From Bryoerythrophyllum caledonicum (taxonomy: Eukaryota > Streptophyta > Bryopsida > Pottiales > Pottiaceae), in the NCBI GenBank assembly GCA_963971425.1, contig OZ020517.1:4404501-4468500 (forward strand): DNA of 64,000 nt, written 5' to 3'. Shown piece after piece: positions 19,319 through 56,619 of the stretch. Within the stretch, counting starts at the first letter, position 1, and every line of letters begins with the position of its first letter. The notes under the pieces were generated by a model, which worked only from the letters and a program-made list of their open reading frames with translations, did no database searches and had not been told where the DNA came from. The position numbers and the translations under genes were made by a program.

Positions 19319-19628
19319 TTAAAAACACAAAAGTATGAAAAGCTCAAAAAGATATAATCATTGATTTGTTGATAAAACATGGATTTTAAATGCAAAAATT
19401 TAAAGTTGAATTGCCACAAAATATAAAATATTTCCCTATCCACAAACATTGTCATGTTTTTTTATAATATGCAATGTATATAATATATTTCAATCAAACG
19501 ACAACTTTTTTAATAACTTATTCGTATGTAAATCAATTTCTTTAATTTCCTTGAATTTGAACCAAACGCTTGCTGAAATATTACATTCTTCATAGACTTT
19601 TTCACCTACAAAACCGTGAAGAGAATTA

Positions 19629-23656: not shown

Positions 23657-24792
23657 CTACTCATTGCGGAAAAAGTCCCATGGGGTCTCTAGGCTGTAAG
23701 ACGGTCTTTTCAATATGTCTACTACATGCGTGATGGTGGATTGCTCTAGTAGATTAGGTTTCAACAACTCATCCATACTTTGCTCAAACCGACGCGATAA
23801 TAAACTTGGATTTTTGTTCTTCTGGAACAAGCTTGAAGAGCAATCGTGGTTGTAAATCCTCCTTACCAAATATTCCACCGCATACGCCTTAGATCTATGG
23901 TTGTGCTTATGCTTTATTCCCATTCTCCTCGGTGATGTTGGCGTTCCGGGCTTGCCATACACATGGAATAGCTCAGGGGCCGCATGTAGGTATTTACCTC
24001 TGTAAGCTTGCACTTCCTTGTTAGATAGTCGACCGTAATTCGACATCTTATCTTTGCCATCCCAAGATGTCATTCTCCAATCACACACCCCAATGTATAC
24101 TGCGTCGGTTTTGACCTTTGGGAAATGAAGCATAACATTGTTGGGACTCAAATCATTGTGCGATAGCCGTTGTGAATGTATCACATCCATGATGCACATG
24201 AGTGCCCATGTGCATTTATTACAAATACGCCCGATTTTTGCAATAAATGCACGATTCTAGACGGGCAATGAGGTCGATTCCACCACTTCTTAGAATGTCA
24301 TCCTCATGTTCCTCTTTGTATTTCGAATCAATTCTCCAAACGAACGTGAGTGAGCCACCGTTCAAGGTTCCACCATAGAATATATGACTCTTACCTTCTT
24401 CTATCGAGAAATTGAATCTTGATGACCCCGGCATGGTCCACCGGACACGCTAGCGCCTTGAATGATTGTTTCTCCCGGATCTTCGTCTTCAAATCCTCCT
24501 TCATTGTCTTCCCTTCAAACTCTATATTTGGAGGAATGTAGCTCACACTTTCGATGCTCACACGTTGCACAATTCCAAAGCCACCTTCATAGTTCCTCCC
24601 ATCTAGTTCCTTTATCTCCGCCTCTAATGGGAGCCACATGACCCCTTCGCGACCTGTGGTTGCAATTCGCGCCGACAAATCAAGTTCAATCCAAGGGACA
24701 TTTTGGCATGATCTCCCGTGAGGCTTGACTTTCATTACCCCATCCTTGAATTTCTCTAACTTCACCTTCAATTCTTCCCACCCAGATAGCAC
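23657..24792 (-). pseudogene. Divergent protein-kinase-like gene, copy A (broken)
   Basis: Three minus-strand frames join into one kinase-like domain. They are: a glycine-loop region (YEGGFGIVQRV), a beta-3-like EFEGK and HAGVIK, frame 24,391-24,792; a middle part (GGTLNGGS), frame 24,219-24,434; and the catalytic loop SHNDLSPNNVML with metal-binding GVCDW in place of DFG, then AAPELF (APE motif), frame 23,657-24,199. Two frameshifts, near 24,420 and 24,230, break it. HND replaces HRD, and CDW replaces DFG, as in copy B at 46 kb. Substrate and pathway are unknown. It is flanked by two short-repeat arrays and has a TATA box about 1 kb upstream. Confidence 0.7.
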
Positions 24793-25644
24793 ACGACCTT
24801 CTTTTGTTTATATCTTGGCTTGTACCTCCTAAGGGCCAAAGCGTTACCATGGGGTTATAAATGGCAATTGAGCGTATTCCTTTATCTACTCTTCGTAAGA
24901 AAAACGGCGTCTATCTTTGGTAAATGTTTCTTTGTTAGCAACGACCTCGACAATCATTTTTAGTCTCTCCTCCAACGATGCCTATCGAGTAGCACCTCAA
25001 TTCAAGTAGCGTCTCTCCAGCTGACCTAAGTCATGGTCTTTATACCATGATAATAACTCGGCCACAACCTTGGTCGTGAGAGGCTTGCTCATCTGATCTA
25101 GATGAGAGGTCCTTTGCCTTTTCTTCCCACCTCTCGAGTCCTCCGAATCTGCTGGTCGTTTGCTCCGTCCGCGTCTTGTTGCATCTAAAGGTTTGCTGGA
25201 AACTAAGGAATCTGATGGCGTTGGTGCCACATTATATGAAAGCGGTCATATCGATGAGGCTCCACGCTCAGGATCAACACTGGAGCCACCTGAACTACAA
25301 CCTCCAAGGTTTCGATCCCCAACCAAACTTTGTGATCCTCGAGACCGCCCAGCTCCACGTCCCCTCCCACAGATCCTCGTGACTCCCCTTAGAGATCCTC
25401 GTGTACCTCAAGAATGTGATTGTGATCCATGAGAATTACTTTGTACGAGAGCATAAATTTTTTGATTCATTCCAATGCCTCGTCCGCCACCTCTCTCGCT
25501 TGGTCCACCTCTGCTGTCTTGGCCTCTTGCCAAGTTACCACCGCTGACATTGTCAGTAGCCGCAATAGCAAATGCAATTTCCACATGATAAGGTTTATGG
25601 AGTTGCATGTCTGCATCTTGGTAATGAACCTTCTCGTCAGCCAT
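24793..25644 (-). pseudogene. N-terminal part of kinase-like copy A
   Basis: An ATG at 25,644 starts MADEKVHYQDADMQ and continues as a Gly/Arg/Ser-rich segment to a stop at 25,408. Further pieces at 24,997-25,230 (RGRSKRPADSEDSRGGKK, basic) and up to 24,792 are broken by stops. I place them in the same gene because they lie between the TATA box at 25,853 and the kinase domain on the same strand. The arrangement is inference; introns could also be present. Confidence 0.4.
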
Positions 25645-27359: not shown

Positions 27360-30300
27360 TACCCAAAGTAACCGCTCTAAATTTGTTCCCACAGAGACCT
27401 ATTGTTCCTTTCTGAACTAATAGGTAAAAACTAACTAAATATCAAACACTACTTCCCTGGTTAGCTTTCATATTCATCCCTTTAATCTACCATCCGGATC
27501 CTTCCGGATCCCGGAGGTCTTACACTAGTTTCCGGATCCTTCCGGGTCCCGGATAGCTTCAAACGGAGTTCCTTCCGGAGTTTTTAAACGAGTGGCCGGG
27601 TGCCACTGATCTTGTTTTGTGAAAGTGGCCGGATTCCCCACTGTCTTGTGACTTAAAGTGGCTAGACACCCACTCTCCTACTCTATTAACCAGTGAAGAG
27701 TTGTTACAGCCTGACCCACATTCTCACATCATCCCAATGGCCATCCGGATGTAGTCATGCAGAGGTCGATTGGACTACAACGACATTCTGGCTGGTACTG
27801 TGGTGGCTCTGCTAAATGAGTGTTGCAGTTTGTAAGTGACCTCTTTCTAGACATACACACCAGGCTTTTTGCCTATCGTAAGGGGAAATTTCGGCCGCAA
27901 CCGAAATCCGGATTCACATGGCTATTTCATGCTCTAGGGACTACGAGGCCCACCCCTGTAGTACATCCCTTCCCCCTCCTAGCTCCTTCAGGTCCCTATA
28001 GAATGTTAGGTCTCTACCTAATTTCTCCTCCAGCTTTTCCGGGCCTTCTCCCAATGCAAGTCCCAACCGGTCGTTCTAAGTACAACTCTTGCAACCCTCA
28101 ACTCATAAGAACTACAAATCATAGTAGCCCAATCAAAATGGATCTGCTTCCTCGCAAGAAAGAAACCCTAATCTCCACAAGTTCAAGAAGAGAAAATGTG
28201 ATAGATAGAAAATACTCTTCATGAGTAAAAATAAGATGATGAGTTGACTAAAACTCATCTATTAAGTACTAACTAAACTCCTGAATCTAAAGTCTACCTA
28301 ATCCGCTCAAAATTTGGGAAATCTTATCCTAAAAGTAAAAAGATCTTATCCCTGAAAATCCGGATTTCAAATCTCAAATCCGAAATTTATGGATCTGAGA
28401 TCCGATTATTCCGCTCCTAACGAGTAAACCAATTAGGGTATTCTTTAGCCTAGGGTGTGGTAGCCGGGTGCAACCTTGAGCTCCATCGTTAATCGCTGCT
28501 AAACCTAGCTGTCTAAAGAACCTAAATTCCTAATTACGGAGTAATCTGGCTTTTCTTCTTAAGACTCCTACGCCTAAGGGTTACCTCTTCTGCGGCCGCA
28601 CTGGTCTCTGGCTGCTCCGGAGTGGACACTAGCGGCTCCGGGGTAGACTCGAGTTTCTTGTCATTCTGACCGGAAGGAGTTTCCGGATCTCCCGCTGTTG
28701 GTATGCCGATCTGTAGTGAGGGTGACCGGATTCGAGGGTTGGGTAGGTCTCGAAAACTTCTGCTGGGGCTGACATCTATGTCAGTCACTGCTTGGCTGCG
28801 AAGTGGAGGAGTCGCCCGTAGTTGAACTGGAGAGGGAGACTCCGACGGAATCCGGAAGGGCAGAGGGGGTTCTTGCGAGAGGCCTTCCGGCATGACGCTC
28901 TGCCACTTCTGGAGGGTCTTCGTGCTTGGGAAGGGCACCTTGCTCCGGCTCATCAGTGAGGCTAAATCCGGAGTCCCAATGAAGTCATTGAAACCTCCGG
29001 CCGGTGTCTGCGGCGTTCCGGCTGCAGGTCCTGCTGGAGTTCGGGATGGCGGTTCGGGTGGAGTTTCGCCTCCTCTTGAGCAACCTTCGCTTGCTCCACC
29101 CGCTTCTAGAGCCGAACATTGTTTTGAGTGAAGATGTTTTGCTGCTGCTCCTGCTACCGGACCAAGGCTTCCTTGGTCATCAGCTACTTAAGTCGTGGGA
29201 TGAGATCCACGAAGTCGTTCGTCCCTACTTCTTCCATGATGGCCATTATCATGGCGGTCCGCTCCCTGACCTCTCTGTCATGGATCCTTGCTCGCCAGAC
29301 CACATGCTCGCAGAGCTCCGCAATGTCCTCCGGAATGCGGCCAGTCATGCTTGGAAAAAAAGTTGGTCCCGGCTGTACTCCGATGCTATAGGATTCAGCT
29401 GGTGGCGCTCCGGAGGATGGTACCTCGGTCGGGCTTTGGGTCTCCATCTCTTCTGAAGGCTGGCTTGGACATGCGGGTTCCGGAGTCTTCTGGATTGACC
29501 CGCTCCGCTTTTGGGATCTCCTGGTGACAAGCGGGGACAATGTTTGGAACTCCGAGTCTTTAGAATCCTCCTTTTCTTCCTTTGTCTCCCATCTGCCGTA
29601 AGACTGGATGCTAAGTAATTTGTCGAACTTATCCCGTTCCTCCGGACTCAACAACTTCTTCTTGGCGTACAGATGTGCCATTTAAGTTGAGAGGGGCGTT
29701 GTTGTCTTCTTGGCCTTTGGAAGGTTTTTAACCATACGATCGACTTGGTCCTCCCATCAGGGCTGCCCAATCTATTGTATGCTTCCCCCTCATTGCCCCC
29801 AGGAAAAGACTAGCTAGCTTCGCCACTACCCACTTTGGCTTTTCCGCATGGAAAATAGGTTTAGGAAGGCGATGACTAACCTGGCATCCGGATCCGTAAG
29901 GTCATCGAAGACGTACCCGTCCTTTGAGTTGGCCTTCTGCAAAAACTCTCCCTTCAGCAGGTTGTCGTTGGGCTCTGCCACCTTGACTACCCCCTGCCGG
30001 AAGCCGTAGATGTCCATTTAGGTCGCGGCAGTCTATTCTTCCGAACGAGCCCGGATGCGTCCGTCGTACTGGTTTGGCGGCTTTCCTACGAGCTCCGTCA
30101 CCGTCGCCTCACTTTGAATGGCCCATGGCGCTCCCAGAAGGCCGTTGCAGCCCATAAGCTCTAGGTAGCTCTCCAAAACCCTAAACTCCTCCTCCGAAGT
30201 TGGCAGTTCCGGTGCCACCTTTTGGAGCAACAGGGTTCTGGCTGCTAGAGTCTTGCCCTTCTTCCCTGCCATCCGGCCCTACTTCTTGGTGTGCTTACGC

Positions 30301-30690: not shown

Positions 30691-32546
30691 CGATTTTTTT
30701 AAATTTTCTCCCATTTCTTTCCGGATTTAGTGCTAGTGTCCGGAAGCGAGTGGGAACGCCTTCCAACACCAGTGGATTGAGAAACACCTCCTAAACAAAA
30801 GAGTATAGATGTTAAAAGGACAAAAGTAGCGGATGCCCTAGAGCAATCATTGCGCGAGCTCGAAGTCACAGATGCGAGGCAATTGGGCATCCATGTGAGT
30901 AATTAGATTAATGTGGAGTCAATGCCATCCTCATTATCTATGGAGGTGACCAATGTGGATCAAAACGAAGCCATTCAAATATCAACAACATGCATGCCGC
31001 ATGGTACTATAAGTGACTATGGGGGGTCGTTGGCAAAACAAGAAGTGAGCATGAATACGAACGACTGGAAGATGTAATTGAGGGAACAAGGGAAATGGTC
31101 AGTATTGGTGATTTGCAAGCTCATGCAGACCCCAACATTTTGGATACATGTGTTCAGTTGAAGGCGCAATTACAAGTGCTCCGCGTGGAAATTACAAGGT
31201 TGCAATGCGATAGGGATGCCGTCGTAGAAGTTGCATTCAAAGCATGTGTGTTAGAGGCAGTGAAGGGCACCTTGCTTGCCGAAATGGCCCAGTTGCGCGA
31301 TGAATTCGACCATTCCAAGAATGATAATGGAAATTATCATGTTGAAATTACAGCCTTGTAAAGGGGCTAGAAGAAGTTAAAGCACAACATATTACAAACG
31401 AGGTGACATGTGCAAATTTCCAACGTGAGGTGGATGAGTTAAAGGCAAATAGTGCAAATGACGAATCAAAGATAAATAAACAGACAACCTTAGTTTTAGA
31501 AACCATTGCCGAGCGGGAAGAGATGATGCTTATAACGGTGTTTGCGGTGGCACGAGCACGGCAGTATGAGTCGAAATTCAAGAGCATCATTGCCGAATAG
31601 ACGTTTGAAAATAAACTGAGTACCCTCTTGTTTACATCGTGGCCTCTAGAGGAAACTATGTATTTGAAAAATTGAGACAACAAGGAACCGTCGATATTAA
31701 AGACGGACAACAAGAGCATTGATTGGAAGCACGTCACAGAAGACGATCATCATTGGAACATCGAGGAGGTGCATGGCCATCCGCAAGATATGATGGAGAA
31801 GCCGTTGTGGCTAAAACCACATCCGATGACATCCGACGGATCGTCATGTCCTATTTGGGGCCCAAAAGGGTGTTTTACAATTGGATCATGTGGCCATTCG
31901 TTCCATCCACAATGTCTAATCAAGAGTATGATTTTCTCACGTATGTGCAGCATCTGTAGAGCGCCATTACACCCACGTTTGTATCTGCAATTTGGCATCC
32001 GAGTTTCCTGCCAATCCATTGGGTATAACGCCAAGATGATTATGATTATGAACTTGGCAACTTCAATGGGCACCATGTTGAGTGAAGCTGGAGGCACAAT
32101 ATGTCAAAGGTACAAGTGTGGCATAAGTTTGAGGGGGAAAACTTGGAAGATGATGTAGAGAAACTAATTCAAGCTACAAACGAGATGTATCCTGACAACC
32201 CGCTTGGGTACGGCATGAAGATGTTTTTTAATCAAACCATGGGATGGCATTGGAATCCTCAGAGGAAGGAGTTGGTGCACGGTTTAGGACCAAAACCATA
32301 TTACAGCGAGCGGTAGAGACCCTGGAACTACGCAGAGCCTATTGTGGAACTCTTCTAGCTGAGAACATCAGTACAGAGGACTTGTTTTGGGAAGAACGCT
32401 ACCATCGTAAACGACTACTGGTGGCAGCGCTTGATGCCATATTGGATGAAGTTGCCCCGGAGGTAAAGGAATGGCTAAATGGTGGGGACATACCTCGATA
32501 TTTGGAAATGGTGATGGGTGGAAGCAAGCTAGGGTGGAGCACTTAG
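30690..32546 (+). pseudogene. PWT-family gene, coiled coil + RING-like + C-terminal part (broken)
   Basis: The frame at 31,095-31,361 encodes a helical segment (LKAQLQVLRVEITRLQ), continued by 31,403-31,600. The frame around 31,700-32,010 encodes a RING-like finger: SCPIW, then IGSCGHSFHPQCL, then CSICRAPLHPRLYLQFG. The second metal-binding Cys is Trp (CPIW, expected CPIC), so the site is damaged. The last part (32,244-32,546) is helical and aligns with the tail of the copy ending at 51,115. Frameshifts between segments make it non-functional. RING fingers usually bind E2 enzymes in ubiquitin ligases; that role is only inferred for intact relatives. Confidence 0.6.
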
Positions 32547-32699
32547 TACGTCACGAGCAGTTTTTTCAGGGGGTCCCAAACTTCAATGGCCGGATTAGTA
32601 GTACTCCCAATGCAAAACTACTAATGTTTTTGGCAATGATGTTAGCAATACTAATGAATATTATAAAACTATTGTGCTTTACTCCAAAAAACATTGGGA

Positions 32700-33465
32700 A
32701 CACATAAATATATGTACTTTTTTAACTTTCAGAAAGTACATCACTGTCTGGAATAAAACAACAAAAGTATGAATATCATGTTGTTTGACAAAAGATAGTA
32801 CAAATTCACACTTAGATAATGGAAGAACATGTTTAAAGCCTTCAAATGCACATTAAAAGTTGTGATAATTTTTAGTCGCTCATTGTGATTTTTACGGTCA
32901 AAGTGCTAAAATTGTTTTTGGGCAAAATATACTCAAAAATGATCCAAACTTCATTTTTTTTCCAGTATCCAGTCGTTTTAAGGGGATCCCCATGTGGGTA
33001 GCAAACTGATTTTCAAGTAACATGAGTAGAAGGTGGCAAACTGAAACACCTTCCACTCCCGCAAAGGTACCAATTTTGTACTAAAGTACCTTTCACTACC
33101 TCGGAAGCGCCGCCAAGGATCATAATGACTCTGACAGTGCGTTGCTATTGGGTGCCGGCATTAGTAGTCATCATTTCCTAGTGAGCTTTCCAGCGACTGA
33201 CATTCCAGGATACGGTTAATTTTTGTGATCTGGATCTAATCAATTTGGCGGCAGTTCGTCTTCCTCCGACGTGCGCGGGAAGGTCCGTTGGTTTCTCATC
33301 TTGTTTGTTGCTGTTGGTGTGTTGCAAGATCCGCAGAAGCTTGATTTTGGTTTAGAGATGCATGTTGCAAAATCACTGTTGCGAGATCTGGTGTAGAGTG
33401 GTCGACTAATTGGTTGTGAAACTGTCTGGAGGAGTGGCTGCAAGATTTTGGCAAGGATCAAAACG
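32700..33465. other. Upstream region of the transposase-like gene
   Basis: Contains several GTAC tetramers (near 32,713, 32,734, 32,799, 33,066, 33,078, 33,085), continuing the GTAC-rich character of the introns downstream. The left boundary of a possible large element should lie here, but I found no convincing terminal repeat. Confidence 0.4.
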
Positions 33466-34248
33466 ATGGAAAATACTCGATTGGCACAACGGCGTCTAGG
33501 AATCTCGCGTCCTGGACCCGAAATTAGGGCAGGAACGGCCGCCAAGGCCGAAGCTGAGCGGGTGGTGCGCGCCGAAGGCGCTCGTATTCGGCAGGCTAGG
33601 AGGCACGCGAGACTTGCACATGCAGCGGAGGCGGCGCTTCTGTTGTCGCAGTCCTAGGATGAAGATCCAGATCTGGCCCGTATTAATGAGCGCTCTTCGT
33701 GTCGGATTTCGAACAAGCTTGCAGGAGCGATTAACAAAGAGTTGAAGGCTTACGAAACACTAGGTTGTAGGCGCTTGGTAGTCGAGAAGATTCTCAATCA
33801 CAACACCATCTGGCCTCAACTGCCTGAGTATTATCCCAGCCCGTGTGAAGCGAAATCGATTTACGTGTTCCTTGAGAGTTTCAAAACCGAGCTGCAGTCA
33901 GTAAGGACGGCAAATTCAAAAGTGTTTTTGGCGAGGAAAGGAGCCCTTCTTGATGCTGCAGTAAGCGAAGGATGCGACAGTTCAAGGACTCTCTCGCGTG
34001 TGCTTCAAGTTCACCCACGAAACATATACGCTGCTGTGGGGAGGAGGATCGGTGTTGACCCTGCAAATCAGTTCGCGCTTCTGGAGAGGAGAAAGCGTGC
34101 TGGAGTGACGGAGTATGTGAAGGAGAAGGTGCATTTGTGGTGGACTCAGCAAACTCGGGTCAGCCCCAACAAAAAAGATGTCACTCGAAAACGGATTGGG
34201 AGAAACAATTACTCAGTGCATGCAACGCACTACCTTACTGAGACTCAG

Positions 34249-35030
34249 GTTCGCATGCAAAAGCCTCACATTCAGTTGTTGTTGATAGTCTTTAAGTGCT
34301 TGATGACACATTCAGAACTCAAAGATAACCTTGTGCTCCTCTGGTTTTCCGAAGCTTTCCATGCATTCTTGAAGTCTCTCTGGATAGACTAAAAACGAGT
34401 TTAGGGTTTTATATTTTAGTTATAGATCGTGGGAGGGATTGGGTTTAGGGGTTCAGGGTGAACGAGTTTCAGTGAATTAGTCAGTCCTTATTGCCTGGGG
34501 TTTAAGGGGAGAATACAGTGCGGGATCCCTATACGTTCATCACATTGGATTACTGTATTTGATAGTTGAACGCCAATCAGATTGCTTTTATCATGTGCTG
34601 AATTTTGTACTGTTTGTGATGCATAGTAGATAGTCTTGGTTTCGTGAAGTTCATGTATGCTACAAAACTTGTACTCTGATCACACCAGAGTACAAGTTGT
34701 GTTTAGAGCTCCGGATGTACTGTTTGCTCACTACCTTGATTGGTAAGGCTCATGTACAGTCGAGGTAATAGTGCTTAAAGAGTATTCCCCATGTTAATCT
34801 TGGTACTTTCTAATAATAAGTTTGAGAAAAGTACATGAGAGTATATTTTTTATGGCAGTACTTAAAGTATGGAACTGACCGGCTTCATTGTGTACTTCGT
34901 ACTATAAGTACAGAAAGAGTAGAGCAGTAGTTGTAGAAAGGTGATAGAGGTACACACAGTGGTCCCTAACCTGCAATCCCTTTACACTGTTTGTTTACAA
35001 TTTACTGATGTGTTTGCTACTCTTGGACAG
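34249..35030 (+). other. GTAC-rich intron 1 of the transposase-like gene
   Basis: Donor CTCAG|GTTCGC and acceptor TTGGACAG|ACC keep phase 0. By eye the intron has about a dozen GTAC tetramers (for example 34,6xx-34,925), several-fold more than the one per 256 bp expected by chance. Confidence 0.65.
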
Positions 35031-36072
35031 ACCCAACTCTTTTTAAATTTTAGGGATGCCCACCCTGAGTGCAGGATCAAACAAAGGGCTTTTAAGTACT
35101 TAAAACCCTGGTACGTAAAAACTCTCAAAGATCAAAATACGTGCTGTTGTATCTATCTCACAGAAATGGATATGATGAGAACATGGTTAAATGATCTTAG
35201 GTCTTGTTCTAAAGGTTTACATTCATCTCAGTCTTGCAATTGTGCATGCAATATTTGTGGAGATGGACAGGGGCATTGTGAGGAGCATTCCCATGCTTTT
35301 GAGAGATTAACAATGTTATGGACATCTTGTGTGTGTCCAAAGGGTGATTTTGATAAGTGGCACGTGTTAGATTGCCTCATGGATAATTGTGGTGAATGTG
35401 GGGTAAGGAAACTTAACTTTTGCCCTCATGAGTTGAGCTTTAGTACTGATCAAATAGTAAAGTGGAAATGCTTTGAGCAAGTTGTTATTGGGGTTCATGA
35501 GGATACTGGTCGTGACAGTAAAAGAATTCAGCAGGTTCACAAGGAAACTTCCCCAGGTGAGTTCGTATCTTACCTCAAATCTAAGGTGGGAAATTTCATA
35601 ATCCACAATTTTGTGGCAAACTGGCAGGACTGTGAGTGCAGAAAGATGATGAACAATTTACCTCAAGGTGTTTTGATATCACACATTGATTTTGCTGAGA
35701 ATTACAGTTTTGCAATACAAAACGAAATACAGTCAATGCATTGGTATTCCACATCCATAACCATCTTAGTTCACATCACATTGTGGAGATTACCCCCAAA
35801 TAAGGCAGGTGAGGATGGTGGGATACAAATGTATACCCACTATTACATTTCTGACGATAAGAAACACGACACGCTTTTTGTGCAACACTGTTTGCTGTTG
35901 CATTGGAACTGGATGTTGAATTCTAGCTGCAAGCCGGTGGAGCATTGGGTGTACAGTGACGGCTGCGCAGCACAATTCAAAGGATCTCGTGCAATGTACT
36001 TTGTTGCTCGATACCCAGGTCTGATGGGGTGCAGCATGAGGTGGAATTATTTTGGCAGTGGACACGGGAAAG

Positions 36073-36614
36073 GTACCCCCCTCAACGTTTGGTTTAACTT
36101 GCAGCTCTAAAAATGCTGGTCTTATATTCTGTACTTTATAAGGCAAGGTGAAGAGTCCATGGTACTAATAGTAGTGATGGTGAAAATAGACCAAATTTTT
36201 AGTGACTGGTCTGCTGGTTTCCACTTTATACTGTACAATTGGGCTATAGTAGTCGTATTCGGAGTACAGTTAGTGCCTTCAGAACTGTGTGGCTACTACT
36301 CGTAGTGTAGGAGGAGTTGACTTTGAGTAGTACAATGAGCTCCATAAGCTGAGTAGCTTTTGAGTACCCCGTTGCTACTTACACTACAGATTTTAGTATA
36401 GTCATTGCCTGTTTTGTACATTTTACCACAACTTCAGATACAATGAGTACAACATACCACATTTCTGACATGGTTTTGGTGCCTTGTATCACAAATGGAG
36501 TACAAATAGTTGATTAATATGAGTATGTTTTGTACTAATTGTACATGCAACATGTGGCAAGGGCTCGGTTGCTTTGGGCCAGTACTAACTAGTTTTCATG
36601 TCTGATCTTAATAG
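36073..36614 (+). other. GTAC-rich intron 2 of the transposase-like gene
   Basis: Donor GAAAG|GTACCC and acceptor TTAATAG|GTGAA restore the conserved HGKGEWDG motif, which strongly supports the splice. The intron again holds about a dozen GTAC tetramers in 540 bp. Confidence 0.75.
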
Positions 36615-37650
36615 GTGAATGGGATGGTGCGGGCGCGGTCATCAAGAGGGCCATCCAAATGCATCAGATCCAGCATCCAGAGGATGAGATGGCAAATGCG
36701 GGTCATGTAGTTGATTTTCTGAAATCCAGATTTTCTAACGGTGTTGTGAGTTCGTATGAGCAGTCGAAAGAGTTGCCCATATCTCGCGAGTTTTGGCACA
36801 TTGGGATAGAAGATGTGGACAGAACTAATGAGTGGGAATGCAAAACAATTCCGGGCTCTAGCAAGTTTCATTCAATTTTAGGACAATCACAGACTGACCC
36901 AACCTTGCTTTTGGTCCGTGAATTGTCGTGCTTTTGTGCTCCTTGTATTAATCTTGATTGGGTAAATTGTGAGCATTAGACACACGTTTCCCATTGGAGT
37001 GTGGTCCGCTTGAGGCCAAAATCTACTGGACTAGTACAAGCTCAGATTGCCGCAGTTGAAGAGCGAACCGTTTTGCCCGATAATGGAGGTGCTGGAGTGC
37101 AAGGGGATATCCTTCGGATGGGCGACAACTTCGTCATACCAGCGGAGGAAGGCAACGATGAGGGGGTCGAGTTTTACATTCTCCAATGCCAGAAGTCCAA
37201 GTTCCGGGTCCAGCAAGATTTCATGTGTCCATGGAGCGGCGATTTCAGAAAGGGCGACTATGTCATATCAGGTTCATACTATTAGAAGTATGGCAGGGCT
37301 TCTGATACATATGTTCTGCTTGATGCTTCTCCCATAGCGCATGTGGATACACATTTGGTGAGACATTGCAAGTTTGCAATGATCTTGGCTTCTCATGTCG
37401 TTAGGGGTAATTCTGCTGTGTATAGGTTGGGTGTAGAGACAGAGCTTCTAATCCAGGAGGCTCTCAGAAATTGGTGGGCTACGGACTTGGCATTAGAGTC
37501 GTAGACATGTGCAGGTTTGACCCTGGATGGACGTTCAAGGGCTACTTTTAGTTGATTTAGGCATATTCTTTGCTGCTTTCAGCGCCATGGTCACTGTGCT
37601 TGTACTTGCACAATGATAAGAGATATTGTCCTTTTGCTTAATTTTCGCCT

Positions 37651-38880
37651 TTAATATCGAGGTGGGGCTAAGCAGCTTCCCAGCTTCCTACCACAACAGA
37701 GTTTGCTTCCACAGAAACAAGGGGCACTCCCTGGTGCCTCCCAAAAAGCCGTCCCGTAGTCCTGTACATGATCCACAGAAGAAGTGAGTTTTCAGCCAGC
37801 AGATAGAGAAAAGCAAGTACTGAACCAGCCCTAGCACTCGGATGATAGTAGAAAATTAGGAAGTTCAAGCGATAACAAAATAGTAGGAAATTAAGAGATT
37901 TGTTACCCAAGTTAGTTCCTCAAGGGGATAGATATGCCTTTTGTCAAAAAATGCCACATGGTAGATATAAGGATCACGGCTTTCAATCCTCACTGGATAG
38001 TCCATCAAATTGGCATCTTCACAGCGATGGTTAACAAACCTCCCGACGTTGCCATATTTGAAACCGTCTATACACAAAGCTTCATTGTCTTTCACCCCAG
38101 CCTCGGTTTTCCAATCCGCGTTCAAGTCCAGCGTATACCAGCCGTGGATAAGTGATTCTGCATGCCTGCTAATGAGCTCTTCATTGCTACAAACCTCTCC
38201 TACATATTCAAACACAAATGAACCAATGGGAATGGGCTGAAAAGTTCGAACCCCCCAGCCTTTCTCTCTAGTCCAGAAGACCTCCACCTTCACCTTCATG
38301 CCGTGTTGAACCACCCTCTTACCACACTCCATGTGACAACCACACGTCAAATTGCACTCCCATATAAACTTTCTGGGTACATGCCCATGACAAGTAACAT
38401 TGAGGTCAAAATTTGCCCCATTTCCCCCGCTGCCCACGTAACATCCGTGCCCCTTGTCACAGAAGAGTAGCTCTGGCTCCCCCTACAAGGCAACACAATC
38501 CAACACAAAATGTCAATGTCAATTACCTAACATAAACACCTTGAAGGGAATTCTATAAAGCAAGTTCTATGAAGTAAATTACATAAAGCTGAATCGTACC
38601 TCCTTCAGCATGTGAGAGGCCAACCTTCCGCCCTCGGTGTAAGCAAACTGCCCTCCATTCTTCATTGCGCACTCACATGCCGGTGATTCTAGCAAGCAGT
38701 TTCTCACTGTACAGCTGCACATGCTTTCTAGAGCATTTTCTACAACTACATGCTCAGAGAAAACGCTCTTTGTTACATATGTGAATGGCAACATGTGGCA
38801 AGGGCCTTCCACGTGGTTAAACACTAGAACTGCATGTTGTTCTCTCCCTCTAGACAGATCATTGCAATCTACCCAAGGAG
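37651..38880 (-). CDS. SUVR-type SET-domain histone lysine methyltransferase (3' exons)
   Basis: Three exons: about 38,880-38,600, 38,482-37,907 and 37,761-37,651. Introns 38,483-38,599 and 37,762-37,906 are GT-AG and phase 0. The product has PWVDCNDLSRG, then a pre-SET with CSCTVRNC, CEC, FCDKGHGCYVGSGG and CNLTCGCHMECGKRVV. The SET domain has GWGVRT, EYVGE, YGNVGRFVNHRC, YHVAFF and ELTWDYG, and post-SET has CFCGSKLC. All motifs for S-adenosylmethionine binding, catalysis and zinc binding are present. NHRC and DLSRG are characteristic of plant SUVR (SET1/SU(VAR)3-9-related) enzymes, which methylate histone H3, typically H3K9, in chromatin silencing. Exons carry no stops. Phase-compatible exons upstream (39.1-41.4 kb) suggest a larger fusion. 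The 5' limit of the first exon is uncertain. Confidence 0.88.
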
Positions 38881-39075
38881 CTTGCCCAAATAGAAAAAAG
38901 GGTTATAAAACAATAACCCATAGTGATGAAAACACTTTCATATTAATAACCTAAACAAGATAAGGAGGATCTTATCTTACATAACTCACAACCTACTGCT
39001 TGCAAGTCACTTGGCTGGCAAGATCCTAAACATAGCTATAAAATATATTAGAAATAACAGTGTGCTGGGGCTAAG

Positions 39076-41445
39076 TCACCGTTTTACCATTTTTTTCCTC
39101 CCCTTGGTTCCCGACTGTGCCAACTGAACTCCAGGGGCGAGTGACTCCATCTTCTTTGCCTTCTTCTTTGGGCCTCCAGGACCTGTCCCATCGATGTCCA
39201 TCTCCATGGCCTTCATCGCATCCTCCCGGTTCCCCATGGATCGCCGGTTTCTGCTGGTTCGTCGTGGTGATGGCTCAATGTCCACATCCATGTCGTCTGA
39301 AGAACATTTCCTGGTCGGAAGAGACCCCCCCTTGTTGCATTCATCACCTAGCTGAGTGGGAGAGAAGACGATCACGTGGTGCTCCTCCTCGGACTTCCGT
39401 CGCCTTCCACGTGTAAGCACACGTTCAACTACAGCAAACGTCTCGGTGACGGAAGGCCCATCCACATCCACCCCCTTTGCGATTGAAACAAGGTCCAGCA
39501 CGGTCCCAACGCCGTTGTCAGTGGCCCCATTTGCCACTTCTTGCAGTGGCGGTGACACATCCCCTATATTTTGGCTGTCGTCCCCAAAATCTGCCGGAGG
39601 AGACATTTCAGGGGCCTCTCCGTCTGATACTTTTGGGGATTCATGTAGACTTCCCTTCACAATGTCTGCAAGCCATCAATAGAAGGCACAAAAGTACAGT
39701 AAATATTTGATGGCAAATGCAGTGCAAACGTTATATTGGACTAGTTATAAATTCTGGAGTACGTACCTTGGTTTGGTGATACCGTGGGTACCACTCGTGT
39801 GTCCGATTTCTCCTGGCATTGAGCCTCGGCGGGTTTTTGTGCCACACGAGCGGGTTGTGGCATAGGCATCACAAATTTCCTTTCCTTCTCGAGGTTCACG
39901 CTCTTCATTGCCGGCGACGAAGATGGACCCCCATCCCTGGTCCCATTAGGGACAGCCCTGCAAGAAGCAGCGAGCTCTTGGACAAACTCTCGCCTGTCTG
40001 AAATGACAGTAGGAAGAGGACCTGCACATAGCACATAAGTGAATTAACAAGCTATCATAGTCGGCCAAGATGGAAGTGAAAGTACACTAACTACTTCATA
40101 CGTACTATAGAAGTGCTTAAAGTGTACCTAAGCTGTTCATGAAACACTGTAAGTACAAAATTTCATACTCAAGGATCCAACATGTACATATTGTTGTGTA
40201 AAGTAAGTAGGTTGAGTATTAAAAATGCTTCCACATACACTTCTTGTACCCCTGTACCCTGGCTTCGTACATAGATTACTAAGTTCCCACTTTTTATCAC
40301 ATCAGTAGTACCAATTTCGAAAATTGCGTCAAGTGTACCTAAGTTGTTCATTGTCTGTACTTCTATTCTGTAACTAGACTACTGATCGTACCACTTTGGA
40401 CATACACTATCTACTAACTTCACACCACAGTACTCTAAGAGATCAAAGTTCAACGCATAGTATTCTAACTGTGGACAGTTGGATATTCAACAAAGCTCCG
40501 AAGTACCTAAGAGTACCACTGTCCTACTTAAACTATGCATTATGCCATCATGCACCAATTTAAATTAGAAGGTTAGATACATACCCGATTCCGCAATGCC
40601 TTTCCCTTTACAATCCGATGGCTGACCTTCATTGCGCATGGGTACCTCCTCTGGAAGGACCGCCTGAAGCTCCTGTTGTTGTGCAGTATCTTCACTTGCA
40701 AGAACCCAGCCAAAGCTCTTGTACCAATTCGCGCTCCCTTTCCCAATACAGTTTGCCTCCACACATTTGTTCCCCTTGCTGAAAACAACTAGAGAACACC
40801 ATGGATGGTACACATGTTTGCAATTTGCCACAACAATATCAAAATCTGGAAACTCAAATTCACACAGTGAGCACCGTGTGATCGAGAGGTAAGTCTCATT
40901 TACGACAGACCCGGCTGGCTTGGGATACGTGACAGGCCAAGGTTGAATCGAGCGCGGCAGACCGCCGCTCTGAAGTTTGGCTATCTCTTCGATGAACGCT
41001 GCAAGTTGTCGCTGCTTCAGGACGATGCTTGCTTCCAAGTGCTGCAGCTCCTCGGCTTTCTTCTCAGCGTCCCGTTTCGAATTGACGAATTTGACCTCAT
41101 GGTCGGCCTTCATGATGCCCAGTATGGTCTTCTTTGTCTCTGCTTCCACAACCCCTTCATCAGTTGCTAGGACCCTTGACTACAGGCCTTCGAGTTACAA
41201 ATCCAGGCTCCTAAGAAACAACTTGATGCTCCTTGCCTCCTGCGCAACCTGATCTCTTCGTGCTTGGGTTGGAGCCAAGGCTGCACGCGACTCGCTCATC
41301 TCCACGGACAGCACTCGCATCAGTGCATTCATGTGCGATACCCTCTCCTGCGCACGCGAGTCCGCGGCTTCCACGAAGCGAGTCGGTATTCTTGATGCAC
41401 AAACTTCAGACTCTTGTTGTACAGCCAATGCCACATCTTGAGCTA
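39076..41445 (-). CDS. Upstream exons of the SET gene: coiled coil, RING-like finger, acidic/basic linker
   Basis: Exons about 41,445-40,590, 40,023-39,770 and 39,671-39,080 join through consensus introns in matching phase (TCGG|GTATGT...TGCAG|GTCC; CAAG|GTACGT...TTGCAG|ACATT). The first encodes a long coiled coil (RDQVAQEARSIKLFLRSL ... KKAEELQHLEASIVLK), then a zinc-finger-like RCSLCEFEF...NCKHVYHPWCS...CVEANC. The others are Ser/Pro-rich and end in a basic stretch (PKKKAKKMESLAP). Two in-frame stops (TAA 41,195, TAG 41,180) interrupt the coiled coil at positions compatible with Gln codons, so this copy is damaged or starts downstream. The join to the pre-SET exon is not resolved in phase, so fusion to the methyltransferase is likely but unproven. 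Confidence 0.55.
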
Positions 41446-41467
41446 GCTACTATCTAGTGCTGGAGTG

Positions 41468-43000
41468 CTAATGGTGCCACAGTCCAAGCATCAAACACAA
41501 ACACAAGCATGCATCACAAAAAAAATAGACCATCTGTAAAGAAGACCTTAGCCGCCTCGATGACCCCCCCTTTCCTAGACACGCTGCCATGCCTTTCTCC
41601 AACTTGACTTTTTTGAAGCCATCTCGAGTTAACTCCACGCCTTTTTGCTTACAGAGCACCAGTTTTTCTCTCTGCGTATCCCACCGTTGTCTTTGGGTGT
41701 GGTTAGTCTCCTGGCCGTAGGTGGCCCAGTTCACCTTCCCCCTCCCTCCGTCGTGCTCCAAAGCAATGCCTTGAGCAAACTTAATCTTCAAGAAACTCGG
41801 CATCGTATCCTTGTCATGCTGGTACACAATCGGGTGTCAGTATTTCACCCTCGCTAGGACGCTCTTGTCGGTGCAGTCTTGCCACTTGTAGCCTGCACGG
41901 CCGCCTTTTCCGCACCGCCTCTCAAACAAACCTGCAACCAGCTCCTCCGGCACCTCACCTTTTTTGAAGCGATGCGGGTTCAGGCCGGTGCCCTCGAGCA
42001 TGTAGTTGTTCTTGAAATCACTGATATGTAGTATGGGAGGCGGTTCCTTAAGTTTGGCAAGAGCTCCTTCGATGTCATATATCTCCTGCTCTTCCTCAGA
42101 GTCGGTTACAACTTCTTCATCCCGCTGCCTCCCGGCTGAGAGAGACTTCTCTCCCGATGCCTTTTCTCCGTTCTTGGTCGGCTGAAGCATGCTGAAAACC
42201 TGTACACTCTCACCGGGCAACAAGCAGTCAATTACAAACTAAACCGTCTGGGAGTGCATATGTGCACTACCAGCATTCTAAATCCTGGAACGGCAATTCA
42301 GCACTCCGCAGAAGCTTTCAACAAGCACAGACAAACTTTCCCAAAAACTAAGACTGACTTGAATCTGCAAGGCATGGCACTTGAAGTGTCGACCTTGTTA
42401 CGAGTAATCTGAGGGCGACCAGCCTTGCTTCTGACCTCAAGGGCCGTGCACTCTCGCAGCGTCTCCACCCCAGATCGCAGCACCCCACACATTCGGTGTG
42501 TCCTGCTCAATTCACCTGTGTAGCTCGCATTGTAATAAACACAAATGCATCAAACTACAACCCAAAACCCAAAACCTCACAATGCGTGGACATCCAACCT
42601 GACATGTAGCCACCAGATCTAACTTACAATCACTCGCTGGCAAAAGAATCCGACTCAAACATGAGAAAACATGAGAAAATAGTGCTCGACAAGAAAAGTG
42701 AGGATGTTCACGTACCTCTAGCAAGTTCACACAGAGACGCAAAACGACGACCTTCATCACGACGACCTGCAATGCGCTCAAGAAAGAGCGGTGGAGCTCA
42801 CACAGAGCTTTCAGCAACCGATTGTGAGCCCTCACTATCGCACCTACATTACAACCGTAAACCCTGGATCCCAACTTGCTACCTAAACCAACACTAACCC
42901 CAGCCGCCTGCACAAAGAAAACACGACAATTCAAAATTGCCCAACACCCTGGACTCACAAAAATTGGCCTATACGCATAATGCCGACCTTCCTACACCTG
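41468..43000 (-). pseudogene. Multi-exon gene upstream of the RING-SET gene, unidentified
   Basis: Exon-like pieces join in phase. One ends GRRFASLCELARG at about 42,715 (GTACGT donor). The next, 42,514-42,390, reads ELSRTHRMCGVLRSG to RPQITRNK. The next, from about 42,203, reads VFSMLQPTKNGEK through FKNNYMLEGTGLNPHRFKKG to VLARVKY, then a TGA at 41,837, then HPIVYQHDKDTMPSFLK to LRSSLQM. The TGA lies in otherwise open frame. I recognise no domain. It may be the 5' part of the RING-SET gene or a third gene of the same putative element. Confidence 0.4.
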
Positions 43001-43157
43001 CTTCAGTCAATCCTAAACCTCCAAAACGGGACCTAAACTCTAAAATAGCAGCCATTCGCCCTCCTCCTCCAACGCATCTGCGACAACAGCGCGCGCAACA
43101 CAGAGGATTCAAAACACGCTGATCTCCGGGACTCCAGGCGGAGGTGCGAGACGAAGT

Positions 43158-43330
43158 TAACCGGTAATCACCGGTCTGGACGTTGTGACCACCGGTGATC
43201 ACCAGTGGTGCCATTCCCGCCAATTATGAGCCAGTGATCTGCAAGATCTCAGCTGTCAAACCCCACCCCAACCGCCAACGACCGGTGATCAGCGGTTCAT
43301 GGTCGTGGACGACTGGTGATAGCCGGTCTA
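43158..43330. promoter_or_regulatory. Cluster of four ACCGGTGATCACCGGT-like palindromes
   Basis: Variants at about 43,160-43,175 (ccggtaatcaccggt), 43,190-43,206 (accggtgatcaccagt), 43,281-43,296 (accggtgatcagcggt) and 43,312-43,327 (actggtgatagccggt). Four copies in 170 bp, upstream of the minus-strand genes, look like binding sites for a dimeric protein. Confidence 0.6.
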
Positions 43331-43821
43331 TGTGTCACAAAATTAAACCTCACTGACAGCCTCCAAAAACTACACTCTGCACGACTTTCGAGGCTCCTAA
43401 AGCCGCGCGTGCCACACCACCTGCCAGACTGTAGGAATGCTAAAAATATTCATTTATACTCAATGTACACAAGGCAAATTGGATCCCAAAGAAGGATTGA
43501 CTTTTACCACTTTTTTGGTACAATAGGTTGTCCAAAAGTGCACCCACCTTAGTGTGCTTCTACCCTGATTTACCATGAATGCCATGGATGTAGGACACGG
43601 AGTAATATTCGTGCACAAGGCGGTGATTCCTCCAACTCTTCAAGACCGCAACAGTAATTTGCCAAAGTTTAGGAAAGAAAACTGGGTAATATGATTGGCA
43701 ACAAATTCCCCTTTCAATTAGTATACTAGAAATTCCTCGTCCATGTTGTTGCCATTATGGACATAGCCATATAGTATAGTTGTTTATGAAGGGATATTTT
43801 TGCCTATTTTGAATTTATTAA

Positions 43822-45842: not shown

Positions 45843-47448
45843 CTATATCTCATAGCGGAAGCAAGCGTCCGGAACTTCAAAGTTGAATGGTTTAGCCATT
45901 AGCTCGTCAACCACTTTGCAGAGTGTTGGACGTTTGAGGGGATCTCGCTCTAGTAATTTCTCGATCTTCACTTGAAAAGCTGCGTAGTTGACAGTTGATT
46001 TGAAGAATGTTGAGTCAGATTCTTTCTCCCAAATCGCTCTAGCCATCCACCCAACAGAGTACGAATCGGCGAGCTAGGCGTATTGGTGTCGCCGCTGCAT
46101 CACATCCAATGCCGTTTCCGAATCTTCTCGGCCGAATTTGTAAAACAACTCTGGAGCTACTCAATGTGGTCTATGGCATTGATTGTGGAGCTCCGTGTCA
46201 GTCCGGAATCCATATTTTCATGGCTCTTCCTGTGATATTCGGCTCGCAATTCCCTAATCACAAACGCCAATGAAGACGGACCATGGTTTCTCTGGAGGAA
46301 AGTGGAGAAGCACGTTTGTGGGATCGATGTCATTGTGAATGACATTTGCCTTGTGGATTTGGGCCATGGTGGACATCAAATCCGAGGCAAGTCTTGCTCT
46401 ATTCTTCCGGAAGGCGAAGATTTGTGTTGTATCCCCCGCCGAAATATATGGAGCTGAAAGGATTGAGTTGATCGAAGCCGCCGGATTTGCCTTTGAATCG
46501 ATGGTTTTAAAATGGGCCCAGCTACCACCATTCCACCACAATGTGTATGCCTCCATATTCTTCGTATTCACCGCCCAAAACTTTAGAACTCCTGGGTGTG
46601 CAACATGACATATCATGGCCTCGTGAGACCGTTGTCTAAATTTCTCCTTCGAATGAGACGCCGTTGGCATTTTCCCGGCAAACTCCATGTATGCCAAAAT
46701 GGCTCGTACACCCACAATGCGGACCTTCCGAACCTTTCCGTATCCACCAACGGCGTCATATCCGGAAAGTCCATAAACTCCGATATCTTCTGGAAGGAAT
46801 TGCACGCTTTGCAACATATGCGCCTCCATGGCTGACTTCATCGCTTGTTCATTCCAAGGCATACCTCTCGTACGAGAGCTTGAAAACCTGCTAATGGTGG
46901 TCTTCACACCATCGAGGAACTTGCGGAGTTCCAAGTCTCGTGGCTGATGTTGGCCCCCGCGAGGTTTTTTCACCTCACAATCAAATACATGCGATGCATT
47001 ACTGGTGCATTGAGTGATTACTCTCTCCATGAATGAGGCATAGTGATACATGCCATATGCATCCTTGAACAATTCAGAACTCTCCAGAGCGCGCTTGAGT
47101 TTGGAGTGGAGGTCGGCATGAAGGCACATGATTCCAGGCTCTCCCTTCTCCAAATAAACTTGACGGAATCGCACCACGTCAGTTTCACACCATCAACGGT
47201 AATATTGTATTGCCACACCTCGAAGAAATGCGGTATACTCCTTTGGCGGATAACCGGCATCCTTCTCGTGCGCAGACATCCTTCTCGTACGCAGACATTT
47301 TTTGCTTCGCCCTCTTCGACGGTGCCTTCGGTGCATCGGAAGGATTGCGGCTCGACTCTGCAACGCTAGTAGGTGGAAGCTCGGATGCATCTGAAGCATC
47401 TAAATCAAGATACGCGGGCTGCTTTCCAGTATTACAATCAATGGCCAT
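45843..47448 (-). pseudogene. Divergent protein-kinase-like gene, copy B (broken)
   Basis: ATG 47,448 starts MAIDCNTGKQPAYLDLD, a Ser/Pro-rich N-terminus. Frameshifts near 47,235 and 47,180 lead into a long frame with VGGYGKVRKVRI (glycine loop), MEFAGK (likely catalytic Lys), HPGVLKFW, NVIHNDIDPTNVLLHF (catalytic loop, HND for HRD) and FIGVCD (metal-binding Asp). After this the same frame continues through four stops (TAG 46,254, TGA 46,218, TGA 46,161, TAG 46,074) with VAPELFYKFG (APE motif) and VGWMARAIW preserved. It ends with a conserved RDPLKRPTLCKVVDEL helix. The first stop falls where copy A has Trp (GVCDW). Clearly a decayed gene of the same kinase-like family as 23.7-24.8 kb. Substrate unknown. 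Confidence 0.72.
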
Positions 47449-48646: not shown

Positions 48647-51115
48647 ATGGAGAGTGAGAGTGAGCCAAATGCCCAACAATAGCCACCAATGTCCACCGCG
48701 CAGAGGAAGAGGGAGAAAGTTAGTGATAGGGCGAGGCGTGGGAAGCTCCAAAAGAAGCGGATGCACGTGTTCAACAATCCAGCGAAGATTGCATTCGTGG
48801 GTTGGCAAGATGAGCCATCGCCATGGTCGTCTGTCACTTACGAGGATTACATCGAGTGGTGCCATTTGTCAAAGATGTTTCCTCCACATGGCCATTTAAT
48901 AAATCGTCGCGCAAACAAGGCGAATTTGGAGTATTGCATCAATGAGGCGTTTTGAGCTCGTGCCCTCCAAGTTCACCAATACTTATACGAGCTCGAATTC
49001 ATGCCCCGCAATGATTGTCTCCTCTATCTCGCTCGCATGGTATATGTGGAGGTCGTTCTCAATAAGCGAGTGGATTGGAGGATTGTGCGGAAAACTCCAA
49101 AAATGCCGAGGGTGTGGATGCATGCCAATGTACCTAGGAAGCAGCATCCTATGTTTTATTTTGCAGCTCTAGGGCCACAGAAAATGGATGGCCCAGAAGA
49201 AGTAGCTCCAGTAGAGTCAGATTCATCACCGGATTTGGACTCAGATGGACGTGTAGGTCCGCGTTCATCGACTTCTGTAGTGGGACGTGCGTCACGATAT
49301 AAGCGCCAACGAGTGAAGCTCCATCAAGCAGGACGTCTATTGGTTCAAGGAGGTGGCCAAATAGATTAACCAATCGTAAATCTTGTTGGCGATGATGAAC
49401 CCGCCGCGAGGCTTGACGGTGTTGGAGATGAAGAACCCATCCATGTTATGTATGAAATGCCAATGATGGATGTCGTAGTCATCACTTCTAACACCAGGCA
49501 TATAGCATCAGGGTCCGGAAGTACGATCGTCGATGCTTACCTGGAGTTATTAGACACTATCAACTTGAAGGATGAGATGATTCAACGTCTCCAAGAAGAG
49601 ATTGAAAACCTCAAGCTGCAATCCAGTGAAAATGGTGATATTTTCACCAAGCAAGCAGCCGAGATAGAAGAGTTGTGTCGAGAACGTGTTGCCAGCCAAA
49701 CTAATATTGGTAGAGTTGCTCAAGGTGTGGACGACACAATCCTTGACAATGTTATTGGCAACATTACTAGCTGCTTACTAGAGACCCCGACAAGACCACC
49801 GCGTCACTGTTTCGCTAGTCATCCGTTGGTTTTTCTACCGCCGCAGACTGTAGCAGCGCAACCATTTGTAGATTCCATTGGCACCGAGGATTCTTTGTCG
49901 TTTTTCCTAGCTAATCCAAGCACGGAACTTGTTCAGCTTCGCAGTGCAAATGACATCCTTCGAAAAGGATTAGATCGGTGAGCGAGCAATACTATCAATG
50001 GAAGGTGGCATGCATCTTGAATGTTGATCGTGCGAGGCAAATGGCAATGGAGGTCCTGAAGATTGACAACGAATATTTGACGAATAATACGCGCCGTGAC
50101 TTTGGACTCACATCTTGGGCTCACATCGACGAGATGTTTTCAACTGAATTGCCTCTGTCGCCAGATGGTAAATCTATTGACTAGGCAAAGTTGGAGTGGG
50201 ACCACGCAAAGGCTATGTCTTCTCATGCCCTTCAACCAAGCGGAAACGTGGCACCACGGAGATTATGGCGAACACCAGTAAGCTTCACGCAAAATGAAGA
50301 TGCTTGCCTGATTTGTTTAAATCCTCTCGGGCCAGAAGGTGCATATGCTCTTGGCACGTGTCGGTGTTTATACCATCCGATGTGTCTGCTAGGTGGTATC
50401 TTGACACGTAGGTTTTGCACAAAGTGTAGAGCACTATTTCATAAGCGCTTATATGAATTGTTTGGTCTCACCACCTACATGCCACCTAGTTGGAAGTTGA
50501 ACCCGGAGAATGCGCCTGGGGATGCCTATGCTCAAAAGTGGGGAGAATGCGCCTAGGGTTGCCTATGCTCAAAAGTGGGGAAAAGGTTTGGTGTGGAATT
50601 GGCGTGCGCAGTGCCACCAATTACATAAGTCCGGTGTAAGCACACAATTTGGTTGGAAAAATGACCACAAAGAAATTGAACGAGTGACCAACAAGCTCAT
50701 ATCAGGAACCACCGCGGACCATGTTGGTAAACGAAACTTCTTCTACCAAGTCATGGGCGGATAATGGGATGCTAGGCGGAAGCTATTTCAATTCGTGCAA
50801 CGTCCAGATGGGAAACTGTGGAATCACCAGGGACGTGTGGTGTCAGAATTGGGAGAGGCCAGTGATCTTGACCTTCGCAATGTGTTGCAATGGGAAGAAT
50901 CGCAATGGAAGGAAACTTGGAAGAAAGAAGCTATTGACTTCCTTCTTGAGGAACATAGTCCGGCGACTATGAAGACTCTCAAAGCACTTCGAAACTCCGA
51001 AATGTTACGTGCTCTCGTAAACGCGGATGGGCCTCACCGAAGGACGCGAGCGGCTCGTAAATTGCTGGATGATGGGGCCTCAGGAAGTGGTGAACCAAGT
51101 GGAGCTAATGCGTGA
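48647..51115 (+). pseudogene. PWT-family gene, full-length but broken copy
   Basis: ATG at 48,647 aligns with the starts of the copies at 56,620 and 58,721. The N-terminal domain contains KKRMHVF, GWQDEPSPW, YIEWCHLSKMFP, NLEYCINEAF, RMVYVEVVL and VDWR, the family signature. In-frame stops are TAG 48,680, TGA 48,953, TAA 49,367 and TAG about 50,182; a frameshift lies near 49,980. Beyond the domain come an acidic/Ser linker, a coiled coil (LKDEMIQRLQEEIENLKLQ), then a RING-like finger: ACLICLNPLG, GTCRCLYHPMCL, FCTKCRALFHKRLYELFG. A helical tail ends at 51,115. It is the only copy here showing all parts. The finger suggests a ubiquitin-ligase-like role for functional relatives, but this is inference. 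Confidence 0.68.
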
Positions 51116-52320: not shown

Positions 52321-52488
52321 CCTGGACACCTCCAGACCAGAGCACAAGGAAGGAGGGCGTACTAACACCCGAGGGAGGAGAGCTCCAGAACCTGGGAGGA
52401 AGAGAGAGAGCTGAAGGGCCCGAGAGAGGAATTGAGGATCCAAGGCTAAGGTAAGAGAGGGAGGCCAAGGGAGGAAGCCTTGTCAAAA

Positions 52489-56515: not shown

Positions 56516-56539
56516 AAGCACTATTGGGAAGTCGGTCCT

Positions 56540-56583
56540 GGTGTCTATTGACACCCTTTTACTCCCAGTGTCTATTGACACCC
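56540..56583 (+). repeat. Duplicated ggtgtctattgacacc inverted repeat in the leader
   Basis: GGTGTC-TATT-GACACC at 56,540-56,555 and a near copy at 56,568-56,583, in a 28-bp tandem duplication. A single copy is at 58,665-58,680 in the next gene. It could be an RNA hairpin or a palindromic protein site. Confidence 0.75.
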
Positions 56584-56619
56584 TTTTACTCCCGGCACCC
56601 CTTCACGCTAGTTTCAAGT

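Follow-up and report, generated by a model that had tools for sequence, protein, structure and literature searches.

A transposase gene and a convergent SET/RING-like gene in a DNA transposon family of Bryoerythrophyllum caledonicum

Genes and ends of the element

We analyzed a stretch of 64,000 nucleotides from Bryoerythrophyllum caledonicum (Streptophyta, Bryopsida, Pottiales, Pottiaceae; GenBank assembly GCA_963971425.1, contig OZ020517.1, positions 4,404,501 to 4,468,500 of the forward strand), hereafter called the window. An earlier sequence-only reading had proposed that a transposase-like gene and a convergent SET histone methyltransferase gene in this window form one large transposon. 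Positions 32516-43565 of the window were identified as one complete copy of a DNA transposon, 11,050 bp in length and of undefined strand, which belongs to the first of two subfamilies (A and B) in the host genome. Its features are as follows, in window coordinates.

32512-32515, unstranded: left target-site duplication TGAT, from the ends read base by base
32516-32544, plus: left terminal inverted repeat, 24/30 alignment columns matching the right repeat
33466-34248, plus: transposase exon 1, with an in-frame TAG at 33655
34249-35030, plus: transposase intron 1, GTAC-rich by count
35031-36072, plus: transposase exon 2, bearing the first and second acidic residues of the DDD triad as well as conserved cysteines
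36073-36614, plus: transposase intron 2, GTAC-rich by count
36615-37504, plus: transposase exon 3, with two in-frame TAG codons (36977 and 37283), the natural stop at 37502 and, at its start, the third acidic residue
37651-37761, minus: last exon of the SET gene, with the DYG motif, post-SET cysteines and stop TAA
37907-38482, minus: SET exon (Pfam PF00856, E 1e-14 for the surrounding open frame)
38600-38868, minus: pre-SET exon (Pfam PF05033, E 1.1e-11 for the surrounding open frame)
39183-39665, minus: linker exon of the SET gene, 3' end uncertain (39183 or 39088)
39767-40021, minus: linker exon of the SET gene, for which no match was found in subfamily B
40022-40584, minus: SET gene intron, GTAC-rich by count
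40585-41446, minus: coiled-coil and RING-H2-like exon of the SET gene, 5' boundary approximate, interrupted in the window copy by an in-frame TAA near 41195 and an in-frame TAG near 41180
41546-42190, minus: N-terminal domain exon of the SET gene, with an in-frame TGA at 41837-41839 in the window copy
43536-43565, minus: right terminal inverted repeat, paired with the left repeat
43566-43569, unstranded: right target-site duplication TGAT, from the ends read base by base

The three-exon transposase-like gene that had been read on the plus strand at 33,466-37,504 was borne out in its junctions and frames: the reading frame continues over both exon junctions, with the start of exon 2 set by homology. 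The three in-frame stops of this gene had gone unmentioned. All of them are TAG, and a reassigned stop codon was considered and rejected, since the gene's own end, where homologues end, is also TAG and the stops of the window copy are absent from the other A copies covering those positions. A homologue (P0005) has an invariant aspartate triad and an integrase-like fold, and the window transposase keeps the same three aspartates. The closest named relative is from Klebsormidium nitens (40% identity). In a Klebsormidium protein (P0009) leucine-rich repeats are joined to this transposase, perhaps through a merged gene model or a fusion. Pfam assigned no transposase family to the protein, a sequence search of its profile against solved structures gave nothing meaningful, and two scans of viral and prokaryote collections returned no relatives.

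On the minus strand, the post-SET, SET, pre-SET and RING-like exons of the predicted SUVR-type gene were identified from 37,651 upwards, and the two genes stand tail to tail with 146 bp from stop to stop, where about 150 bp had been estimated. The encoded domains follow the order N-terminal domain, coiled coil, RING-H2-like finger, pre-SET, SET and post-SET. Pre-SET, SET and post-SET are all present, the catalytic motifs of SET are conserved, and the nearest known structures to this part are the histone H3 lysine 9 (H3K9) enzymes EHMT1/2, followed by SUVH6. A grass protein with PF10440, pre-SET and SET domains shows 41% identity to the SET part and has the NHRCxDANL motif in common with it. 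PF10440 is the WIYLD domain, which was not found in the SET-gene frames scanned (those other than 39767-40021 and 41195-41446). All nine hits of a protein search matched the pre-SET/SET part, and none covered the RING part. The zinc ligands of the RING-like finger, judged by eye, are retained in a subfamily B copy (B9) and in a more distant locus (L041). Between the window and B9 the coil-RING exon is 54% and the N-terminal domain 74% identical, from which we conclude that the whole fusion belongs to the element.

BLAST alignments with other copies begin at window 32512-32516, those reaching the right end terminate at 43565-43571, and reading base by base placed the ends at 32,516 and 43,565. 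Ends had been sought near 32.7-33.4 and 43.2-43.6 kb. Among nine copies read at both ends, eight are flanked by an exact 4-bp target duplication (TGAT, CACA, TCGG, AACA, GTGC, CTAT, TCGC and TGAA), and the ninth agrees at three of four bases. All nine have imperfect inverted ends of about 30 bp (GGGT..ACCC), which match in 24/30 columns in five A copies, 23/30 in one A copy and 28/29 in three B copies. The earlier reading had found no terminal inverted repeats; imperfect ones are in fact present at 32516-32544 and 43536-43565. Blind local alignment of the window alone gave no inverted-repeat signal above shuffles; its best-scoring pair is nevertheless the true terminal repeats, which in the window copy are proven only because other copies share them.

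The introns of both genes (34249-35030, 36073-36614 and 40022-40584) are rich in GTAC, AGTACA and TACTAA words. The three large introns contain 11, 13 and 15 GTAC words, where dinucleotide shuffles average 2.9, 4.0 and 4.8, and none of 200 shuffles reached the observed counts (34249-34940 was taken as transposase intron 1). The left flank has 7 (shuffle mean 1.8, one shuffle reaching 8) and seven control segments of the window have 0-2. The GTAC-rich introns described before are therefore real and the left flank exceeds the controls, and their contrast with the rest of the window nearly holds, an exception being the stretch at 9-10 kb, which has 13 per kb inside a repetitive coding frame. Subfamily B introns are also GTAC-rich. 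A common sequence origin of these introns is not supported, those of the two genes aligning no better than shuffles; the words are perhaps a splicing or host-wide intron signature. Blocks of CAG/CG composition were also seen and are suggestive only.

Copies in the host genome and linkage of the two genes

The host genome (437 Mb in 894 contigs) was searched with the SET domain and with transposase exon 2. The SET-domain search gave 149 matches, with 150 of 327 candidates scored, and 13 of these, including the window's own, were defined as the window-type group by profile span and score; the other 12 were fetched, ten of them with flanks. At least 13 copies of the element are present in the host genome. 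Subfamily A comprises seven copies 95.6-98.1% identical to the window copy (eight with it), and subfamily B five copies at 67-78% to the window, of which three read with flanks (B9, B1 and B11) are 97.7-99.2% mutually identical in aligned blocks. The highest mutual identity is 98.5% among A copies and 99.2% among B copies; with such near-identical copies and intact duplications, the family has been recently mobile. Several copies are damaged. Copy cp2 lacks everything left of window 34858, that is, the left end and exon 1, and cp14b carries an insertion of about 5 kb in the SET exon, with nothing past window 38807 found in the next 7 kb read. In subfamily B, two copies were read without flanks: L017 is incomplete, and L020 has no transposase in the 9.9 kb read, the genome search placing one about 15 kb off and convergent to its SET exon.

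All 13 window-group SET matches have a convergent transposase within 20 kb, and 12 of them within 12 kb, which is the recurrence that the sequence-only reading had suggested looking for. In the transposase exon 2 search 117 of 420 candidates were scored, and the following counts cover scored matches only. A SET match lies within 12 kb of 65 of the 117 transposase matches, tail to tail in 65/65; 42 are linked within 3 kb, 58 within 6 kb and 68 within 20 kb. The exon-to-exon gaps of the 65 pairs fall into two clusters, 42 at 1-3 kb and 23 at 5-7 kb. When the 109 matches located on large contigs were placed at random, a mean of 1.03 and a maximum of 6 were linked (500 trials, some contig sizes being rounded guesses). 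Together with the boundaries and 4-bp duplications common to the copies, this recurrent pairing upholds the proposal that both genes lie in one element, the size of which had been guessed at about 10 kb. Neither a single-copy host SET gene nor a transposase whose copies are never linked to SET, the two outcomes named beforehand as refuting, was found. The recurrent linked copies with common ends also ruled out chance neighbours, a host gene in single copy and segmental duplication as the means of spread.

Four loci of other SET groups (L041-L044) were read as distant relatives. In L043 and L044 a transposase with about 39-52% identity to that of the window stands tail to tail with a pre-SET/SET gene, and both loci are stop-broken. 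L041 has a SET gene with a coil-RING exon (31-38% identity) and no transposase of the window's family in the 7 kb read; the genome search located one, in convergent orientation, at a distance of about 5.7 kb from the SET match (C12:2423130). A search of the four loci for a motif resembling the terminal inverted repeats gave nothing convincing.

At L042, a CACTA transposase (Transposase_21, E 3.2e-72) lies beside a different SET frame (E 1.6e-11; L042:447-3983). The CACTA transposase (PF02992) and SET occur on the same strand, with SET upstream and a spacing of 1,068-1,075 bp, in 21 places of the genome. These come from an examination of 51 out of 150 transposase rows, of which 21 were linked to SET at a distance of at most 12 kb. 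A 99% copy of this unit, read over 2.7 kb, holds the transposase and part of the SET frame; L045 is also listed with the unit. With the CACTA/EnSpm-SET pair, the genome has a second transposon lineage that bears a SET gene. Near a contig end (C1:50600-57034) a tandem array contains four SET matches at an exact spacing of 2,031 bp.

Selection, decay and possible roles of the SET protein

Seven exons of B9 were compared by the NG86 method with those of one A copy (cp6, replaced by cp1 for two exons). Nonsynonymous divergence (dN) was 0.14-0.30; synonymous divergence (dS) was 0.88, 1.11, 1.71 and 2.50 in four exons and saturated in three, including the SET exon. Finite dN/dS ratios were 0.07-0.26. 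The low dN against high dS between the subfamilies indicates that both proteins are held by selection. On the evidence of linkage and of dN against dS, the convergent SET gene is part of the element and has been kept by selection. One B copy has no stop in any matched exon.

Several findings weigh against this picture. The window copy is broken in both genes: its transposase frame is interrupted by three stops and the upstream part of its SET gene by three more, and the other A copies covering these positions share none of them. Every A copy read has a stop, a frame break or a missing part of its own in at least one gene. The dN/dS estimates are least reliable where dS is saturated, and YN00 gave none for five of the seven exons. 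The RING-like match lies below the curated cut-off of Pfam (E 0.003, 18.2 bits against 27.3), and Foldseek by itself gave no match at E <= 0.001. Moreover, no SET match lies within 12 kb of 52 of the 117 transposase matches that were scored. These may be missing data or SET-less relatives, and they are not evidence for SET-less elements because only part of the candidates was scored in both searches; the SET locus L043 was itself counted as unlinked in the genome-wide tally, yet its transposase is present on direct reading. All considered, we hold with high confidence that the window contains a decayed copy of a cut-and-paste, two-gene transposon family with a selected SET/RING-like gene.

In such a family the transposase would recognise the inverted ends of about 30 bp, and the DDD enzyme would move the element by cut-and-paste; insertion takes place at 4-bp staggered sites, as the duplications show. 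The SET protein might write H3K9 methylation, perhaps with a RING ubiquitin step, on element copies or insertion sites, and the expression and spread of the element would thereby be tied to heterochromatin under its own control. That the mark is written mainly on element chromatin is quite possible, although short of probable.

An anti-silencing role, in which the SET/RING protein titrates or ubiquitinates host silencing factors or misplaces H3K9 marks, is somewhat unlikely. Transposon-borne anti-silencing has precedents in Vandal proteins and TET/JBP (the part of PMC12730594 consulted), and copies up to 99.2% identical with intact duplications have recently moved, whereas conserved catalytic SET motifs would be superfluous for simple titration. 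Action on insertion sites, rival elements or host genes, and not on the element itself, appears unlikely: the DNA around the window insertion is rich in repeats and includes, immediately to the left, a decayed fragment of a coil-RING gene, but the flanks viewed, by eye, were those of only ten to eleven insertions.

Transposons carry captured gene pieces, so the SET gene could in principle be a neutral passenger of no use to the element. The coil-RING and pre-SET parts are 54% and 59% identical between B9 and the window, below the 73-75% of the transposase exons, and the highest finite dN/dS (0.26) is that of pre-SET. This explanation is nonetheless improbable, for dN is 0.163 in the SET exon as in transposase exon 2, with synonymous sites saturated in both, the SET gene has been retained in convergent orientation in both subfamilies and at two more distant loci, and a second superfamily of this genome carries a SET gene of its own. 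That an ordinary host SUVR gene lies by chance beside a decayed transposase, as its SUVR-type domain, several introns and intact SET exon next to a dead transposase in the window copy might suggest, is refuted by the 13 of 13 linked group matches with their common ends and duplications, and is given practically no weight.

With the SET gene taken as a selected part of the element, a wider interpretation may be offered tentatively. Transposons are usually viewed as targets of H3K9 methylation. Here a plant-lineage superfamily may long, to judge from synonymous saturation, have carried a RING-SUVR writer that lays this mark in trans on copies of the element, on rivals or at landing sites, and a CACTA family may have acquired a different SET enzyme; the separate CACTA enzyme in the same genome would then mean that transposons there compete with histone-marking tools. 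A many-copy transposon lineage that conserves a homologue of plant-type H3K9 methyltransferases beside its transposase makes a self-written chromatin state directly testable, and a natural RING-SET fusion may link ubiquitin and histone methylation. For annotation, it is a warning that many SET genes of the host genome are transposon genes.

Other features of the window and comparison with known systems

Outside the element, a sperm-tail PG-rich repeat gene and a plant self-incompatibility S1 gene lie in the window; with the Klebsormidium relative of the transposase, they point to a streptophyte whose sperm are flagellated. Two related RING-like frames (31676-32158, with the transposon just to its right, and 50185-50553) and three related coiled-coil-rich frames (48683-49366, 56518-57543 and 58733-59650) look like a repeated gene family, and may be distantly related to the coil-RING exon of the element (profile E 0.022). 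Two related kinase-like genes lie among repeats on the minus strand at 23660-24807 and 45846-47192 (Pkinase E 0.002 and 0.00014). A long inverted repeat (14805-16206 and 19493-20809), the arms of which have translated frames 98-100% identical, is probably a recent transposon or foldback structure. Related frames that look gag-like occur at 29731-30278 (minus) and 52450-53976 (plus), one of them a 508-residue open frame without a Pfam match.

Because it combines 4-bp target duplications with a DDD triad, the element fits a Sola-like classification. As far as the parts of PMC10741241 and PMC3627910 consulted describe them, Sola elements share the DDD transposase, 4-bp duplications, inverted repeats and size range, occur in a moss (PMC10741241) and are known with passenger proteins (Fanzor1 in Sola2). 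The same descriptions mention no SET gene, and the likeness is one of description, not of compared sequences. The duplications of Sola2 families are AT-rich (PMC3627910, in part) and those of the element are mixed, which also sets it apart from Kolobok with its TTAA target (PMC9587614, in part). At 4 bp they differ from the 7-12 bp of MuDR (PMC10741241), the convergent two-gene layout of which is an analogy only, and from the 2 or 3 bp of PIF/Harbinger-type elements (PMC3627910), and so from HarbingerS.

The sequence-only reading knew of no described transposon with this pair of genes. SET-bearing transposons, HarbingerS and MuDR, have in fact been described in Phytophthora (cited by Kojima 2025, PMC12730594), and they too are DNA transposons that combine a transposase gene with one for a SET histone methyltransferase. 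They belong to other superfamilies in an oomycete host. Our element has 4-bp duplications, a DDD transposase, a SUVR-type SET fused to a coiled coil and RING-like finger, and a plant-lineage host. Fungal TET/JBP transposons (KDZ and others) are likewise several unrelated lineages in one host group, each with a chromatin-modifying enzyme, which there is a 5-methylcytosine dioxygenase and here a histone methyltransferase homologue (PMC12730594). SETMAR also places a SET domain and a transposase side by side (PMC6326780, in part), but in our element the two are distinct genes that recur jointly in many copies. No Sola-like or plant-lineage SET transposon was found among the papers listed in the literature searches, which lay outside subscription journals and Repbase Reports. 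SET-bearing transposons as such are known; a SET-bearing element of Sola-like, plant-lineage type appears to be new. Its SET protein has the pre-SET, SET and post-SET order of plant SUVR proteins and, unlike them, an N-terminal coiled coil and RING-like finger.

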